The notes under the pieces are model-generated. The model made no database searches and had not been told where the DNA came from. It saw only the letters and a program-made list of their open reading frames with translations. Source: Nitrososphaerales archaeon (GTDB lineage Archaea > Thermoproteota > Nitrososphaeria > Nitrososphaerales > Nitrososphaeraceae). From it: 41,647 bases of DNA. Positions 8,248 to 30,841 of the stretch are shown here, piece after piece. The stretch covers positions 1 through 41,647 of the forward strand of contig JARBAW010000048.1 in NCBI GenBank assembly GCA_029237505.1, read 5' to 3'. Numbering within the stretch: the first letter of the stretch is position 1; every line of letters starts with the position of its first letter. Both the position numbers and the translations under genes were made by a program.

Positions 8248-10224
8248 ATGGGGTTCTGTTCTATTGTTATAGCATTGGTTAATAATGATGCACCGAATCA
8301 GAATAAACATAAGGTTGGGCTTGAAATCCATCAACAATTGGATTCTAATAATAAATTATTTTGTAATTGCAAAATAGTAGATTCCCCTGAATATGATTTT
8401 ACCTTCAAAAGGATCCTACACCCAACTCAAAGTGAAATGGGATCATATGATCAAGCTGCCGTTTTTGAGTCAAAGAAAATTAAGACTGTAAAATATCTGT
8501 CGTCTAAAAATTCCAATTGTCTGATTGAATCAGATGAGGAGCCACCAGAGATGGTTAACACAGAGGCACTTGATTTAGTCTTAACCATATCTCTTGCACT
8601 TCATTGTACAATTGAAGATGAATTACATGTAATGCGAAAAATAGTGATCGATGGTTCAAATACTACAGGATTCCAAAGAACAATACTAGTTGCTAGGAAC
8701 GGATATTTGGATGTCGATGGAGTTAGGGTTGGAATCCAAAGTATATGCTTAGAAGAAGATGCTGCTAGGATAATAAATGAACAAAAAGATGCTGCTAGGA
8801 TAATAAATGAACAAAAAGATGATACGGTCGATACTAAAATATTCGCTCTAGATAGATTAGGAATTCCACTTATCGAAATTGCCTTGGACCCAATTTCTAA
8901 TACTCCAATGTTTGTAACAAATGTGGCACAAACTATTGGCCGACTACTTCGCGCTACTAAGAAAGTAACTCGAGGCCTTGGAAGTATTAGACAAGACGTG
9001 AATATTTCAACAAATGGTGGTGCGGTTGTGGAAGTGAAAGGGGTGCAGCAGTTATCACAGTTGGCCCTCGTTATTGAATATGAAACAAAAAGACAGGATG
9101 GGTTAAATCAAATCGCGCAAGAACTTCATAATCGTAAAATTCATGAATCAGCCTTCATTGGCAATATCATAGATGTTACTGATTTCATGCAACAATCGAA
9201 TTCCAAAATAGTAAAGAAAATTCTCAGTGGCGATTCTAGATTCATGGCGTTAGTGTTGCGAGAATTTCATGGGATGTTATCTTTTGAACCATATCAAGGA
9301 ATAAGATTAGGCAAAGAATTGGGGGAAGTTGCAAAGTCCTATGGAATAGGTGGTATATTTCACTCCGACGAATTACCAAACTATGGGATTACCGGTGAAG
9401 ATGTGAAATCATTAGCCTCTATTTTAAAAGTTGACAAGAACGACGCTTTTGTTTTGGTTGGTGGCCCTTCCGTATTATTGAACTCCGTAATTTCCGAATT
9501 AACGAATAGAATTAAAAAGGCATTTTCAGGTGTTGTTGCGGAAACGCGTTCTGTGAGATTAGATGGCGTTACTGTATTTAGTAGGCCCAGACCAGGATCA
9601 TCGAGAATGTATCCTGAAACGGATATCCCTTACATTTCAATTAATGAAAACAGATTAAAAGAATTATCGAAGCACATTCCTCTCCCATGGAACGAAGTCA
9701 TCGATCAACTTTGTAAGAAATATCCTATCAACCGGACATTAGCAGAAAATATTTTTGATTCTCAATACTTTTCTCTTTTTGAGAAAATAGCAAGGCACAC
9801 ATCAATAAATCCCTCGTTCATAATATCTAAACTTACAGAAGATTTCGTTAGATTGGAAAGACAAGGTTATGATTGTTCCATCCTTACACAAAATGATCTA
9901 TTTTATTTGTTTGAACAGCTTGATAAATCTAGAATATCGAAAGAATCAATTCCAATAATACTCGAAAAACTGTTAAGAAATGAAGGTAGTTCTGTTAATG
10001 AAATCATAGGAACATTGGGATCTGAGGGATTTACAGAAGATGATATTGATGGCATTATCAAAAAAGTAATTGAGGAAAATCATAAGATAATTTCTCAGAA
10101 GGGAATGGATTCAATCGGCCTTTTGATGGGCAGGTGTATGTCAATTCTAAGAGGTAAGGTTGATGGGGAAAAAATCAACAAGCAACTAGTTACTAGACTA
10201 ACAGAACACTTGAATAAGTCCTAG
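8248..10224 (+). CDS. gatE: Glu-tRNA(Gln) amidotransferase subunit E
   Basis: A 658-residue archaeal GatE, partner of GatD in converting Glu-tRNA(Gln) to Gln-tRNA(Gln). The GatB/E cradle starts with KVGLEIHQQLDSNNKLFCNC (about 22-41) and continues through RLGIPLIEIAL and GLGSIRQDVNIS. An AspRS-like insert (about 290-460) includes RMYPETDIPYISI. A GatB/Yqey tail domain ends the protein. Residues 172-181 are repeated exactly at 182-191 by a 30-bp tandem duplication in the cradle domain. The ATG at 8248 adds a hydrophobic 17-residue N-terminus (MGFCSIVIALV...), so the true start may be the downstream TTG 8275. gatD is not in the window. Confidence 0.93.
   Translation: MGFCSIVIALVNNDAPNQNKHKVGLEIHQQLDSNNKLFCNCKIVDSPEYDFTFKRILHPTQSEMGSYDQAAVFESKKIKTVKYLSSKNSNCLIESDEEPPEMVNTEALDLVLTISLALHCTIEDELHVMRKIVIDGSNTTGFQRTILVARNGYLDVDGVRVGIQSICLEEDAARIINEQKDAARIINEQKDDTVDTKIFALDRLGIPLIEIALDPISNTPMFVTNVAQTIGRLLRATKKVTRGLGSIRQDVNISTNGGAVVEVKGVQQLSQLALVIEYETKRQDGLNQIAQELHNRKIHESAFIGNIIDVTDFMQQSNSKIVKKILSGDSRFMALVLREFHGMLSFEPYQGIRLGKELGEVAKSYGIGGIFHSDELPNYGITGEDVKSLASILKVDKNDAFVLVGGPSVLLNSVISELTNRIKKAFSGVVAETRSVRLDGVTVFSRPRPGSSRMYPETDIPYISINENRLKELSKHIPLPWNEVIDQLCKKYPINRTLAENIFDSQYFSLFEKIARHTSINPSFIISKLTEDFVRLERQGYDCSILTQNDLFYLFEQLDKSRISKESIPIILEKLLRNEGSSVNEIIGTLGSEGFTEDDIDGIIKKVIEENHKIISQKGMDSIGLLMGRCMSILRGKVDGEKINKQLVTRLTEHLNKS
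8758..8820 (+). repeat. Perfect 30-bp tandem duplication inside gatE
   Basis: The unit at 8761-8790 (starting GCTGCTAGGATAATAAATGA) recurs without a mismatch at 8791-8820. The preceding three bases (GAT) also match the unit end. It adds ten residues in frame, giving two copies of DAARIINEQK. Confidence 0.97.
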
Positions 10225-25871: not shown

Positions 25872-27668
25872 TCAAGTCCTCATATAATAGTCTCCAGAGC
25901 TCTTTTGTGCTCTGTCCAATCTTCCACCCAATTTGTTTATTCTTGGACGGCCAGTGCTTTCATCTCGTCTGTATGTAATCGAAAGACTCTCCAGAAACTT
26001 ATTCATTCCACTCTCTTTCTTTATTGGGGAACCTGCAGATCCACTCTCCCCCGGCTTTCCAGAAAAGATAATCAATGAATCAGCCACCAAGTCTATTAAT
26101 TGCATATCATGATCAACAATTATTGCCGACTTACCCTGTGATTTAACAAATCTGTGAAGGAATTTTGCAATATTAATTCTATCCTCCACGTCCAAAAATG
26201 CTGAAGGCTCATCTAAAGCATAGATATCTGCAGGTCGTATTAATGAACAACAAACAGCTACCTTTTGCAGTTCTCCTCCACTCAGAGTATCTACTCTTTT
26301 GTCATAAAGCTTTTTGATACCCATTGGCATAACGATCTGCTGTTCCATAGTAGAACCTTCGATCGGTCCTTGATATGCCACATTTAATAACGATTGTATA
26401 TTGCCATCATATTCATTTTGCAGATATTGTGGCTTGTATGACAAACTAGCCTTGATATCCAATTGTCCACTATCTGCCTTTTCTATGCCTGCTATCATTT
26501 TCATAAATGTAGTTTTTCCCAAAGCATTGGCTCCCACCAATCCAACTATCTCTCCCTCTCTGATCTCCCCTTGAGAAACATTCAACTTAAATGATGGAAA
26601 TGACTTTGTTAAATCAGAAAATTTTGTCAGTGGTCTATCGACTATTAACTCCTCATTCTTGTTTGAACCGTCGAACTTGAATGATTTTTCTCTAAATCTG
26701 ATATTTTCCGTTGGAATAAATCCATCCAAAAAAGCGTTAATACCTACTCTGGTACCTTGTATCGGAGCAACTATTCCGTATGCACCTGGTTCACCATACA
26801 GAATATGAATGTAATCTGAAAGATAGTCTAGAAGAGTTAGATCATGTTCAACCACCATTACGCTCTTGCCATCATCTGCAAGTTGTTTTATAGTTCTCGC
26901 AACAGCCAATCTTTGATAGATATCATTGTATGATGAAGGTTCATCAAAGAAATAATAATCCGCATCCTTGTTGACTGCAATAGCAACAGCCAATCGTTGT
27001 AATTCTCCGCCACTCAATTCGGAGAGAGATCGATCAAGTGAATTATGAAGAGATAATTGTTCGGTCACCAAATCAATTACACCTCTTTCATCATACTTCT
27101 TCAAAAGCTCGCGTGCTGTTCCCTTGAAGGCCTTGGGAATCAATTGAACCATTTGGGGTTTGATTGAAGTTCGCAAATCTCCCGCGGCAATTTTTTCAAA
27201 ATGAGGCTTTAATTCTGTACCTTGAAAATTCCTTATGATATCATCCCATTCTAACTCAGAATCGTAGTTACCAAAATTTGGCTTTATATTACCAGACAAA
27301 ATATTCAAAAGTGTGGATTTTCCTATTCCATTTCTTCCCAACAAACCGACAACTGAACCTTTTTTGAGTAAAGGAATGTGGTAAAGCCTGAAAGAATTAA
27401 TACCGTATTGATGAATCTTGTGATCTCCAATCTCTTTTGCCAGATTAACAATAACTATTGCATCAAATGGGCATTTTTTTATACAAATTCCACACCCCGT
27501 ACACAATTCCTCAGAAATAACAGCTTTCCCATCTTCGGGCCTCTGAATAATACACTCTCCTCCCGTCTTATTCACAGGACAATAAACGATGCATTCCAAA
27601 CCGCATTTCTTTGGTTGACAGAGTTCTTCATCTAAGACGGCGACCCTGTGGGTAGAATTAGGGTTCAT
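25872..27668 (-). CDS. abce1: Ribosome-recycling ATPase ABCE1 (Rli1)
   Basis: A 598-residue ABCE1. The N-terminal domain carries two 4Fe-4S clusters, with cysteines in CQPKKCGLECIVYC and the ferredoxin-like CTGCGICIKKCP. Two ABC domains follow: Walker A GRNGIGKST (111-119) and GANALGKTT, signatures LSGGELQRLAV and LSGGELQKVAV, and Walker B in YYFFDEPS and IYALDEPS. It splits ribosomes after termination. All cluster cysteines and catalytic residues appear intact. It is divergent from the triple-knuckle protein gene, with 154 bp between the starts. Confidence 0.97.
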   Translation of the reverse strand: MNPNSTHRVAVLDEELCQPKKCGLECIVYCPVNKTGGECIIQRPEDGKAVISEELCTGCGICIKKCPFDAIVIVNLAKEIGDHKIHQYGINSFRLYHIPLLKKGSVVGLLGRNGIGKSTLLNILSGNIKPNFGNYDSELEWDDIIRNFQGTELKPHFEKIAAGDLRTSIKPQMVQLIPKAFKGTARELLKKYDERGVIDLVTEQLSLHNSLDRSLSELSGGELQRLAVAIAVNKDADYYFFDEPSSYNDIYQRLAVARTIKQLADDGKSVMVVEHDLTLLDYLSDYIHILYGEPGAYGIVAPIQGTRVGINAFLDGFIPTENIRFREKSFKFDGSNKNEELIVDRPLTKFSDLTKSFPSFKLNVSQGEIREGEIVGLVGANALGKTTFMKMIAGIEKADSGQLDIKASLSYKPQYLQNEYDGNIQSLLNVAYQGPIEGSTMEQQIVMPMGIKKLYDKRVDTLSGGELQKVAVCCSLIRPADIYALDEPSAFLDVEDRINIAKFLHRFVKSQGKSAIIVDHDMQLIDLVADSLIIFSGKPGESGSAGSPIKKESGMNKFLESLSITYRRDESTGRPRINKLGGRLDRAQKSSGDYYMRT

Positions 27669-27822
27669 AGGTAACTATGATAGTATTAATGAAATGATAT
27701 TTTATAATTGTTGAGGATCTTATAAACTGGGAATTTTTCTGTATCTCAATAGATTGCACTTATTATTGTAATATTTATTTTCGAGAAATACTAAAAAGTA
27801 TCGGATTATTGACAAATTTAAG

Positions 27823-28503
27823 ATGGGCGAACTATACTGCAATGACTCACGTTGCCACAGAAATAGGAGCGGGGAGAGACATAAGGCCCACATGAAAGGT
27901 GACGAACATTCAAGCGTCTACCATGGTGAAAATTATTGCAATGATCCGCGATGCCCACAAAACAGGGAAGGACAGAAACATGAAGCTCACACCGAGTCAA
28001 ATATCTCAAATGAAATGACTGTTCATAAAAGATTTGATACCACTAATGAATATCCCTACTGCAATGATCCACGATGCCAGATAAACCGAGATGGAGAAAG
28101 GCATAGACAACACTCCCATGAAAACCCCAATTTTTATCATATTAAGTACTTGGGTGGCCACAAAGCATTTCCTACTCACACCGATACTAAGATGCATTTT
28201 TACTACGATAGAATTGAAATTGACAATCCAAAACTGATAGTTCCATACAGATATATGCAAAATATCGAAAACACAAATGAAAAGAAAATATCTGCATTGA
28301 GAGTAATACTTCTTGGACTTATTTTTGTTCCACTAGCCATAGTTGGTGCTCTATGGAAAAAGAATCACGTCTATACAATCATACGGTTCAGAGATAATTT
28401 CGATGATCAAATGATTGTCTTGGATTTTGACCAAAACATAGCTTCTGCCCAATCCCTAATCTATAAGAGGATGTTGGAATTCCGTAATGCTAAGGAATTC
28501 TAA
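27823..28503 (+). CDS. Triple Cys2His2-knuckle protein with PH-like domain and one TM segment
   Basis: A 226-residue protein with three near-identical N-terminal modules of strict spacing C-x4-C-x8-H-x2-H. Ligands are C6/C11/H20/H23, C39/C44/H53/H56 and C80/C85/H94/H97. Each module reads YCND-S/P-RC, then x-x-NR-x-G-x-x-H-x-x-H, which suggests three separate zinc knuckles. From about residue 105 a bacterial-PH-like domain follows (YLGGHKAF, FYYDRIEIDN, LIVPYRYMQNIEN). A hydrophobic helix (about 158-176) interrupts it, and the end is VYTIIRFRDNFDDQMIVLDF plus a helix. A TATA-like AAATACTAAAAAG lies about 31 bp before the ATG. I do not recognise a named family; it is likely membrane-associated. 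Confidence 0.72.
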   Translation: MGELYCNDSRCHRNRSGERHKAHMKGDEHSSVYHGENYCNDPRCPQNREGQKHEAHTESNISNEMTVHKRFDTTNEYPYCNDPRCQINRDGERHRQHSHENPNFYHIKYLGGHKAFPTHTDTKMHFYYDRIEIDNPKLIVPYRYMQNIENTNEKKISALRVILLGLIFVPLAIVGALWKKNHVYTIIRFRDNFDDQMIVLDFDQNIASAQSLIYKRMLEFRNAKEF

Positions 28504-28561
28504 TCGCAGTTTTGAAGAAACCTAGCTAAGATTAAATTATCCCCCAATGCTTTACATTATC

Positions 28562-28679
28562 AAGCCGGCCATAGTAATAGGGTGCGACCCGGTCCCATTC
28601 CGAACCCGGAAGTCAAACCTGTTATCGCTGCTGTGTTACTGATCTACGTGAGTGGTTGGGAAGCAGCAGTGCTGGCATT
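28562..28679 (+). rRNA. rrf: 5S ribosomal RNA
   Basis: The internal sequence GGTCCCATTCCGAACCCGGA and the following AAGTCAAACCTG are the conserved loop B/C region of 5S rRNA. The terminal helix is formed by GCCGGC at 28564-28569 and GCTGGC at 28671-28676, with one G-U pair. The GATCTACGTGAGTGGTTGGG arm is also typical. The ends are set by that helix and are accurate to a few bases. It stands alone, away from 16S and 23S genes, as is usual in Thaumarchaeota. An ATTAAATTAT element about 25 bp upstream is a plausible TATA box, and a T-run follows. Confidence 0.95.
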
Positions 28680-28717
28680 CTAATATCTTGACATTTTTGA
28701 TTAGTATATTCTGCATT

Positions 28718-29299
28718 TTATCGTGTCATCTCCTCTCCAAAATGCACTTCGGAAAGTAATTCCTGTACATTCATAGCTATGCTATCAAGCAATTCATACA
28801 AAAAGACAAATTCTCTTGGATGCCATATCCTACACTCAATTAGGCACGCCATGTTAACGACACGAACTGAAACCGTTCTTGTAACTTCAGACTTGAGGGC
28901 TTGAAATAGAAAATCTTTGATGCGCTGGTCTTTAGTCAATCTAGAAGCCAAGATGCTATCACTCCAACCAGCCTCATTCACGTGACCTCCAGTCAAACTG
29001 TAATAGAGCTTTGAATTTAAGAGATTTTGATGATTCGCATCGTTTTCTATCAAATCCTGATTTTGAACAAGACAATAAATGTTATAGAAGGGTCCCATTC
29101 TAACAACATCTTCTGAACCTACAAAGTCAATATTTCCGGAAAGCATTCGAATAAATCCATCTCTGTTTCCCAACCACCTTTCAAAATACGGTTTGTATTT
29201 TTGGGGTATGTCAGAATCAAAATGTCCAATTCTACACTGTATGTCATCCAGACCTAATAAGTCAATTATTTCTTTAATTTGAAGAATTGGCAAGGACAA
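28718..29299 (-). CDS. Hypothetical protein, 193 residues
   Basis: A soluble, mostly helical protein that I do not recognise. It starts at TTG 29299 with MSLPILQIKEIIDLLGLDD. The centre contains NRDGFIRMLSGNIDFVGSED and SKLYYSLTGGHVNEAGWSDS, and the C-terminal half contains RTVSVRVVNMACLIECRIWH followed by FLYELLDSIAMNVQELL. Two Cys occur near the middle-to-end but no metal motif is evident. It begins 38 bp after the leucyl aminopeptidase stop on the same strand, so it may share that transcript. Confidence 0.55.
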   Translation of the reverse strand: MSLPILQIKEIIDLLGLDDIQCRIGHFDSDIPQKYKPYFERWLGNRDGFIRMLSGNIDFVGSEDVVRMGPFYNIYCLVQNQDLIENDANHQNLLNSKLYYSLTGGHVNEAGWSDSILASRLTKDQRIKDFLFQALKSEVTRTVSVRVVNMACLIECRIWHPREFVFLYELLDSIAMNVQELLSEVHFGEEMTR

Positions 29300-29337
29300 A
29301 ACAATTGTTAGTTACTGCATTGCAGATCAATTTGTTG

Positions 29338-30825
29338 CTATGACGCATTTTGACTCGCAATAAATTTGACAATTGTTCTGATACCAAAACCAGTAGCTCC
29401 TTTTGGATTATATGTCTTTTCTTTGGTACCCTCTTGATTCCAGGCTGTTCCAGCAATATCCAAATGTACCCATGGAATATCGTCAACAAAATAGGACAAG
29501 AATGCGGCAGCAGTAATAGCACCTCCACCTCTCCCTCCGATATTTTTTATATCTGCATTTGAGCTTTTCAATTGTTCTTTGTAATCATCAAATAGTGGGA
29601 GTTCCCATATTTTTTCACCTGTTTGTTTCGAATACTCTAGAATTTTCGTTACTAATTCTCTATTATTTCCCATCAATGCAGCAACATTTGAACCAAGTGC
29701 TATTATGGCCGCACCTGTCAAAGTTGCCATATCGATAATAGATTGAGGCGCAAAAGTTTTTACTGCAAAGGCAAGTGCATCTCCTAAAATAATTCTACCC
29801 TCAGCGTCAGTATTTAAAACTTCGACAGTTTTACTGTTATACATTTTGATGATATCACCAGGTCGATAAGAATTACCCGAAGGCATATTCTCTACAGCAG
29901 GTATTATGCCAATCACATTTGTCTTCAAATCAAGATCAGATATGGCCTTCATTATGCCAATTACATTACACCCACCACATTTGTCGTACTTCATCTCCTC
30001 CATCTTGTCAGAAGGCTTGATTGAAATTCCGCCTGTATCAAATGTAACTGCCTTTCCAACAACAACTATTCGTTTGTCATTTTTCATAGATCCTAGATAT
30101 TCTATTACTATTAGATTGGGAGTGCTAGAGCTACCTCTACCTACTGCCAATATGCCACCAAATCCATAAGTTTCCATTTCCTCCTTTCTAATCACCCTTA
30201 CCTTGATCTTTGGATTTGCTGATAATTTTTCTGAGAAATTTGCAAGAATTTTTGGCGAACAGTCATTTGGAGGCAAGTTACTAATGTCTCGAGTGAATAT
30301 CACAGCATCAGATAGTATTGAGGCGGAGTCGATGATGTTTTGAATAGCCGTCAGGTCTTTCCCTGTCAAGATCCTAACTTGATTAAGATCAGTGCTATCT
30401 TCATCCTTCTTATAGTTAGTAAATGAATAATTTGATAATTTGATTCCTTCTACTATCGCCGACAGGTGTTCGTTATCAATGCCCTTGAATGGAATAATCA
30501 CTAATTCATCTGCAGCCAACTCTTTTGACTTGTTAACTACTTTACCAGTCAGATTCCTCGTTTTTTCAGGTTCCAAACTTTTTTTATCGCCCATTCCTAA
30601 AAGCAAAACGCGTTTGATGCTAGATCCAGGAGTATTATGAATTACACTCATTGAACCTTCCTTTGCTGTAAATTCCTTTGATTTGACTATCTCTCTAATT
30701 ATGGGATCAAAGTCATTGGTAATATCTGATAATGACAAGGTAGAAACTTCATCCGTGAAGACATAATTCACCAGGAGTTTTGTTCTCAACGATGAAATAT
30801 TGTTTTCAGCCTCAATAACGACCAT
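29338..30825 (-). CDS. pepA: Leucyl aminopeptidase (M17 family)
   Basis: A 495-residue M17 cytosol aminopeptidase. The N-terminal regulatory domain is followed by the dizinc catalytic domain, with VGKAVTFDTGGISIKPSDKM, the metal and active-site signature NTDAEGRI, and LTGAAIIALGSNVAALMGN. It removes N-terminal residues from peptides in the cytosol, and would complete proteasome product degradation. The ATG at 30825 is preferred over the TTG two codons upstream because a TATA element lies about 27 bp before it, inside a palindrome. Confidence 0.94.
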   Translation of the reverse strand: MVVIEAENNISSLRTKLLVNYVFTDEVSTLSLSDITNDFDPIIREIVKSKEFTAKEGSMSVIHNTPGSSIKRVLLLGMGDKKSLEPEKTRNLTGKVVNKSKELAADELVIIPFKGIDNEHLSAIVEGIKLSNYSFTNYKKDEDSTDLNQVRILTGKDLTAIQNIIDSASILSDAVIFTRDISNLPPNDCSPKILANFSEKLSANPKIKVRVIRKEEMETYGFGGILAVGRGSSSTPNLIVIEYLGSMKNDKRIVVVGKAVTFDTGGISIKPSDKMEEMKYDKCGGCNVIGIMKAISDLDLKTNVIGIIPAVENMPSGNSYRPGDIIKMYNSKTVEVLNTDAEGRIILGDALAFAVKTFAPQSIIDMATLTGAAIIALGSNVAALMGNNRELVTKILEYSKQTGEKIWELPLFDDYKEQLKSSNADIKNIGGRGGGAITAAAFLSYFVDDIPWVHLDIAGTAWNQEGTKEKTYNPKGATGFGIRTIVKFIASQNAS

Positions 30826-30841
30826 GTTCAAAATCAGAAGT

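Follow-up and report, generated by a model that had tools for sequence, protein, structure and literature searches.

The window analysed here, by which we mean the whole 41.6-kb stretch of DNA from a soil archaeon, carries a forward-strand ORF between the divergently oriented gene for ABCE1 and a nearby 5S rRNA gene (Table 1). Both neighbours were confirmed as placed in the preliminary description of this locus. An earlier start for the ORF was considered and rejected, given that no ATG, GTG or TTG codon occurs upstream in frame in the window, and that the conserved block located there looks like a promoter.

Table 1. Features of the ORF and its surroundings, in window coordinates
Feature	Position	Strand	Basis or remark
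ABCE1, divergent neighbour	25872..27668	-	Family synteny; no functional link from present evidence
Conserved upstream block (TTTTCGAGAAATACTAAAAAGTATCGG...AAG), 45 nt, probable promoter	27778..27822	+	Six orthologues
ORF, three predicted metal knuckles and C-terminal domain	27823..28503	+	226 aa, ATG start
Knuckle module 1, residues 6-23	27838..27891	+	Exact spacing pattern
Knuckle module 2, residues 39-56	27937..27990	+	Exact spacing pattern
Knuckle module 3, residues 80-97	28060..28113	+	Exact spacing pattern
C-terminal domain, possibly PH-like, residues 103-226	28129..28500	+	Profile A2 and the genomes it matches
Hydrophobic segment, residues 158-178, shorter in homologues	28294..28356	+	Hydropathy, alignment
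Conserved TTAAATTATCCC box 5' of 5S, kept whether or not the ORF is inserted	28532..28543	+	Alignment; promoter role putative
5S rRNA, ancestral neighbour of ABCE1	28561..28680	+	Just downstream of ORF

The modules and their genomic setting

All three modules of the predicted protein exhibit the identical spacing C-x4-C-x8-H-x2-H and share the core C-N-D-[PS]-R-C-x2-N-R-x-G-x2-H-x2-H, while the linkers that separate them (15 and 23 residues) show no similarity to each other by eye. The corresponding DNA pattern, TGY-x4-TGY-x8-CAY-x2-CAY, has exactly three matches in the window, all in the frame of the ORF, compared with a shuffle expectation of 0.07 per window, and three matches were reached in no shuffle. 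The spacing, the common core and the dissimilar linkers that had been claimed for this protein are therefore all present. At the DNA level, identity among the three copies is 65-69%. When the orthologues in two other genomes (G183 and G413) are compared, positional orthologues are 82% identical and non-corresponding copies 71%. Because modules are closer to their positional orthologues than to their sister copies, the triplication is old and took place before these species diverged.

In the majority of the family genomes examined, ABCE1 adjoins the 5S rRNA gene without this ORF, and in two such congeners the distance between the genes is 135 bp (G238) and 126 bp (G152). Alignment indicates that the ORF is inserted between ABCE1 and 5S in the window and in G413, and this position is common to G262, G139 and G412, whereas in G183 and G263 the ORF is located elsewhere. 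The adjacency of ABCE1 and 5S is ancestral in the family, and the presence of the ORF there is a local, late insertion. The order of ABCE1, 5S rRNA, o28718 and a leucyl-aminopeptidase-like gene (window positions 25872-30831) often recurs across the family, and the 5S locus is stable.

These observations bear on the possibility that the ligand of the knuckles is RNA or DNA, conceivably ribosomal RNA, with the C-terminal domain serving as a scaffold or anchor. A role linked to RNA or the ribosome had been raised on the basis of gene position, and the gene does adjoin 5S and ABCE1 in the close relatives of the window. However, that position stems from a late insertion and is absent from G183 and G263, and the check on neighbourhood conservation places the ORF between ABCE1 and 5S only among those close relatives. 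Given that the position is secondary, we reject the ribosome or RNA reading as far as it is drawn from gene order.

The 45-nt block upstream of the ORF is kept in six orthologues, including that of G183 despite its different neighbours, and on the strength of this sequence conservation it is a probable promoter that travels with the gene. Within the block, an inverted repeat, ATACTAAAAAGTAT (window positions 27788-27801), is a possible promoter or operator element.

Distribution and conservation of the module

A profile of 20 columns (A1), built from 14 module types, was searched against 400 Nitrososphaeria genomes. The outcome was bimodal, with 18 module matches in seven genomes at E values of 4e-13 to 1e-9 and the next match at 0.007, and thus the module separates cleanly from noise. 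A relaxed DNA pattern recovered only the same module proteins, and its reversed control produced zero matches. Elsewhere in the class and phylum, weak matches (E 0.0016-0.5) extend over no more than part of the module, and we set them aside as noise. No further module proteins emerged from a sample of 300 genomes of the phylum, and none was found in phage and plasmid records. Three pattern matches in viral contigs were discarded, two of them lying in tiny or broken frames and one in a long, low-complexity frame that lacks the core.

Among the 400 genomes, the module is limited to two lineages. In the genus of the window, orthologues were identified in G139, G183 and G262 and, as a variant, in G263, and those of G412 and G413 were added by a family-wide profile search; orthologues of the ORF are 66-82% identical. 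Seven of the 12 genomes of this genus carry a module protein, and some of the five that do not are incomplete. In G152, all that is left is a broken piece of the C-terminal domain. The second lineage is represented by G060 and G227, which belong to another family of the same order (f2, genus g18; probably Nitrosopumilaceae), and there the modules occur in only two of the 95 genomes of the genus. The protein is rare and patchy, which indicates an accessory function, and its gene order implies no partner.

Four architectures were observed. The window protein and its orthologues have three modules followed by the C-terminal domain, and the G263 variant has two. In G060, two modules precede a zinc-ribbon-like Cys pattern and a C-terminal J domain (DnaJ, PF00226, E 1.6e-16, with the HPDK sequence present), which makes it the only module protein that qualifies as a J-domain protein. 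In G227, two modules stand alone in a protein of 62 residues. The modules are missing from six orthologues of the J protein of G060, which are 57-76% identical to it over the rest of its length, and the three frames read in the DNA upstream of them show no trace of a module. The module is therefore an independent cassette that recombines with other domains. In G060, three genes from the gene for the knuckle and J-domain protein, lies a gene that by eye resembles an AN1 zinc finger (L148, positions 8894-9232).

Conservation within the modules is extensive. All four ligands (C, C, H and H) are invariant in 24 of 24 module copies from nine genomes, including the additional copies in G412 and G413, all of which are intact. 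The 14 aligned module types without exception also retain D4 and R11, and G13 is nearly invariant, having been replaced by Glu in module 2 of G183. Among six orthologues, dN/dS is 0-0.13 in the modules, where some dS values are saturated and the ratios concerned are only bounded from above as small, and 0.07-0.19 in the C-terminal domain. In the linkers it reaches about 0.3-0.8 for most divergent pairs and is low, at 0.07-0.14, among the three closest genomes. Purifying selection on the modules is strong, whereas the linkers drift. Selection for three independent metal sites, as originally suggested, is thus upheld as regards the separate constraint on three modules and the ligands, and the invariant Cys and His residues would probably bind a metal.

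The pattern of invariance is also relevant to the idea that the modules constitute a store, sensor or chaperone for Zn, Cu or Ni and that their function is simply to bind the metal. The copper demand of ammonia oxidisers is high, and both this demand and the tandem arrangement of Cys/His sites would suit such a role. However, the constancy of the non-ligand residues D4, R11 and, nearly, G13 is a better fit to a folded recognition module, and fusion to a J domain lacks an obvious metal-trafficking logic, such that we regard this explanation as unlikely.

The charge of the module similarly informs the nucleic-acid reading introduced above. In the genus of the window, the modules are rich in Arg and have a net charge of 0 to +3, which would favour RNA or DNA binding, but those of the second lineage carry a net charge of -1 to -2. 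Since charge is unconserved across the lineages, the notion of a generally basic, nucleic-acid-binding module is not supported, and we consider the binding of RNA or DNA to be rather unlikely overall.

Searches of Pfam, NCBIfam and PADLOC revealed no family that fits the module, with matches at chance level only, and a search of the PDB by sequence gave no match for the whole protein. The module is therefore a small domain that is absent from these four collections, in keeping with the initial impression that no named zinc finger has this form; no strong match to a described family was obtained, and the Cys and His positions are kept in all homologous modules. A match to a class II bacteriocin (E 0.005) covers only the start of module 1 and is at chance level. 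The sole PHROGs match (phrog_857, E 0.005) is weak and concerns a family of unknown function. Literature searches found no paper on the core string or on a link between zinc fingers and J domains in these archaea.

The C-terminal domain

The C-terminal domain spans about 120 residues and is conserved separately from the modules. In the 400-genome search, it also occurs without modules in other genera of the family. It follows an ordinary zinc ribbon in G331 (L011, positions 1270-1875) and a further N-terminal region in G348, and in a second G263 protein (L018, positions 1168-1938) it is joined to an MG2-like domain (a weak match, E 0.0012). Genes for this domain are broken in several genomes. 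In two genera, a single in-frame TGA is found in each of two otherwise open genes, at adjacent codons of the conserved motif GGHKAYP (L006, about 1531-1560; L009, about 1504-1530), and decay is the likely cause.

Such broken genes, together with the patchy occurrence of the protein, could be taken to mean that this is a fast-moving accessory gene of little function, in which disulphides form at the Cys pairs or the motif is a structural element free of metal. This would be difficult to reconcile with the strong purifying selection on both the modules and the C-terminal domain and with His positions that are as invariant as the Cys positions, and we judge it to be quite improbable.

The PH-like label that had been attached to this domain gained no support from library or fold searches. 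No PH, GRAM or bPH sequence profile in the libraries searched matches the domain, and a PDB match to the domain alone (E 0.79) is meaningless. AlphaFold2, run with a shallow alignment of three sequences, gave models of low confidence (mean pLDDT 40.7 and 48.1), wherein the order strand-strand-helix-strand-strand-helix is compatible with a PH-like domain, in which a seven-stranded sandwich has a C-terminal helix as its cap, and Foldseek with the low-confidence model found no match at E ≤ 0.001. On the basis of this modelled order, a PH-like fold is plausible. The bacterial PH-like (PHb) domains of PF08000 and related families have a similar size and an order of strands and helices, ending in a helix, that is compatible with the one predicted here, and are known in archaea, the host group of the window (PMC2817789). 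However, the C-terminal domain lacks a sequence or fold match to them and has a hydrophobic insert. For PF08000 domains, protein interaction rather than direct membrane binding was predicted (PMC2817789).

The hydrophobic helix noted earlier is indeed present in the window protein (maximum 19-residue Kyte-Doolittle value of 2.56), and in the close family of the window the segment is long enough for a transmembrane helix. The proposed membrane placement fares less well, in that three homologues (L007, L008 and L011) have a deletion of about seven residues that leaves a hydrophobic run of 11. Such a run is too short to span a membrane, and therefore a transmembrane role is not a property of the family; a conserved transmembrane helix, the mark of an integral membrane protein, was not found across the homologues. 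We infer that the protein is cytoplasmic.

Possible function and relation to known systems

We propose that each copy of the core C-x-D-x2-C-x3-R-x-G-x2-H-x2-H would fold around one Zn(II) through its two Cys and two His residues and serve as a recognition knuckle. Tandem copies on flexible linkers would then form a multivalent, probably protein-binding, adaptor attached to differing effector or scaffold domains, which may be a PH-like domain in the genus of the window and a J-domain co-chaperone in the other family. We give roughly even chances to this reading of the module as a metal-stabilised recognition knuckle, with zinc as the probable metal, that acts in tandem as a protein-binding adaptor. 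A preference for protein over nucleic acid as the ligand derives its best functional hint from the G060 fusion, because the part of a J protein outside the J domain usually selects clients. More tentatively, the module may be an undescribed archaeal zinc-knuckle domain with a fold of its own, functioning as a plug-in unit for client or partner recognition that is shared by a co-chaperone and a scaffold-like protein within this archaeal order. Some scepticism is appropriate, given that five of 14 purified proteins of a haloarchaeon that were predicted to be zinc fingers proved zinc-free (PMC11241148). In archaea, a protein predicted to hold zinc may thus turn out to have none, and this counts against our preferred explanation.

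The module defines a small domain family missing from Pfam and NCBIfam, and its short, invariant signature makes direct expression and testing feasible. Its N-terminal position on a J-domain protein provides a concrete functional hypothesis, namely the recognition of clients or partners. The biological weight is modest, as the protein is rare, patchy, accessory and confined to one archaeal order.

Like zinc-binding domains in general, the module has four invariant Cys/His ligands. It resembles the classical C2H2 zinc finger (C-x2-4-C-x12-H-x3-5-H) in presenting two Cys and then two His residues and in occurring in tandem on linkers. However, its Cys and His pairs are separated by eight rather than 12 residues, and it ends in H-x2-H; no module copy has the classical spacing, and no Pfam zinc-finger family scored above cut-off. 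CCHC zinc knuckles (C-x2-C-x4-H-x4-C) are likewise about 18 residues long, often in tandem, and contain Gly and basic residues, but differ from the module in both spacing and ligand order, and Pfam yielded no match. A stretch of eight residues (CNDPKCPW) in uS17, a ribosomal protein of archaea (6skf chain As), is similar to the beginning of the module (E 0.36), but the NR-x-G-x2-H-x2-H half is lacking and the resemblance is probably a coincidence. Zinc-ribbon-containing J-domain proteins are similar to the G060 protein in combining zinc-ribbon-like Cys pairs with a C-terminal J domain, whereas the two N-terminal knuckles of G060 are missing from its orthologues, and the window protein itself lacks a J domain.
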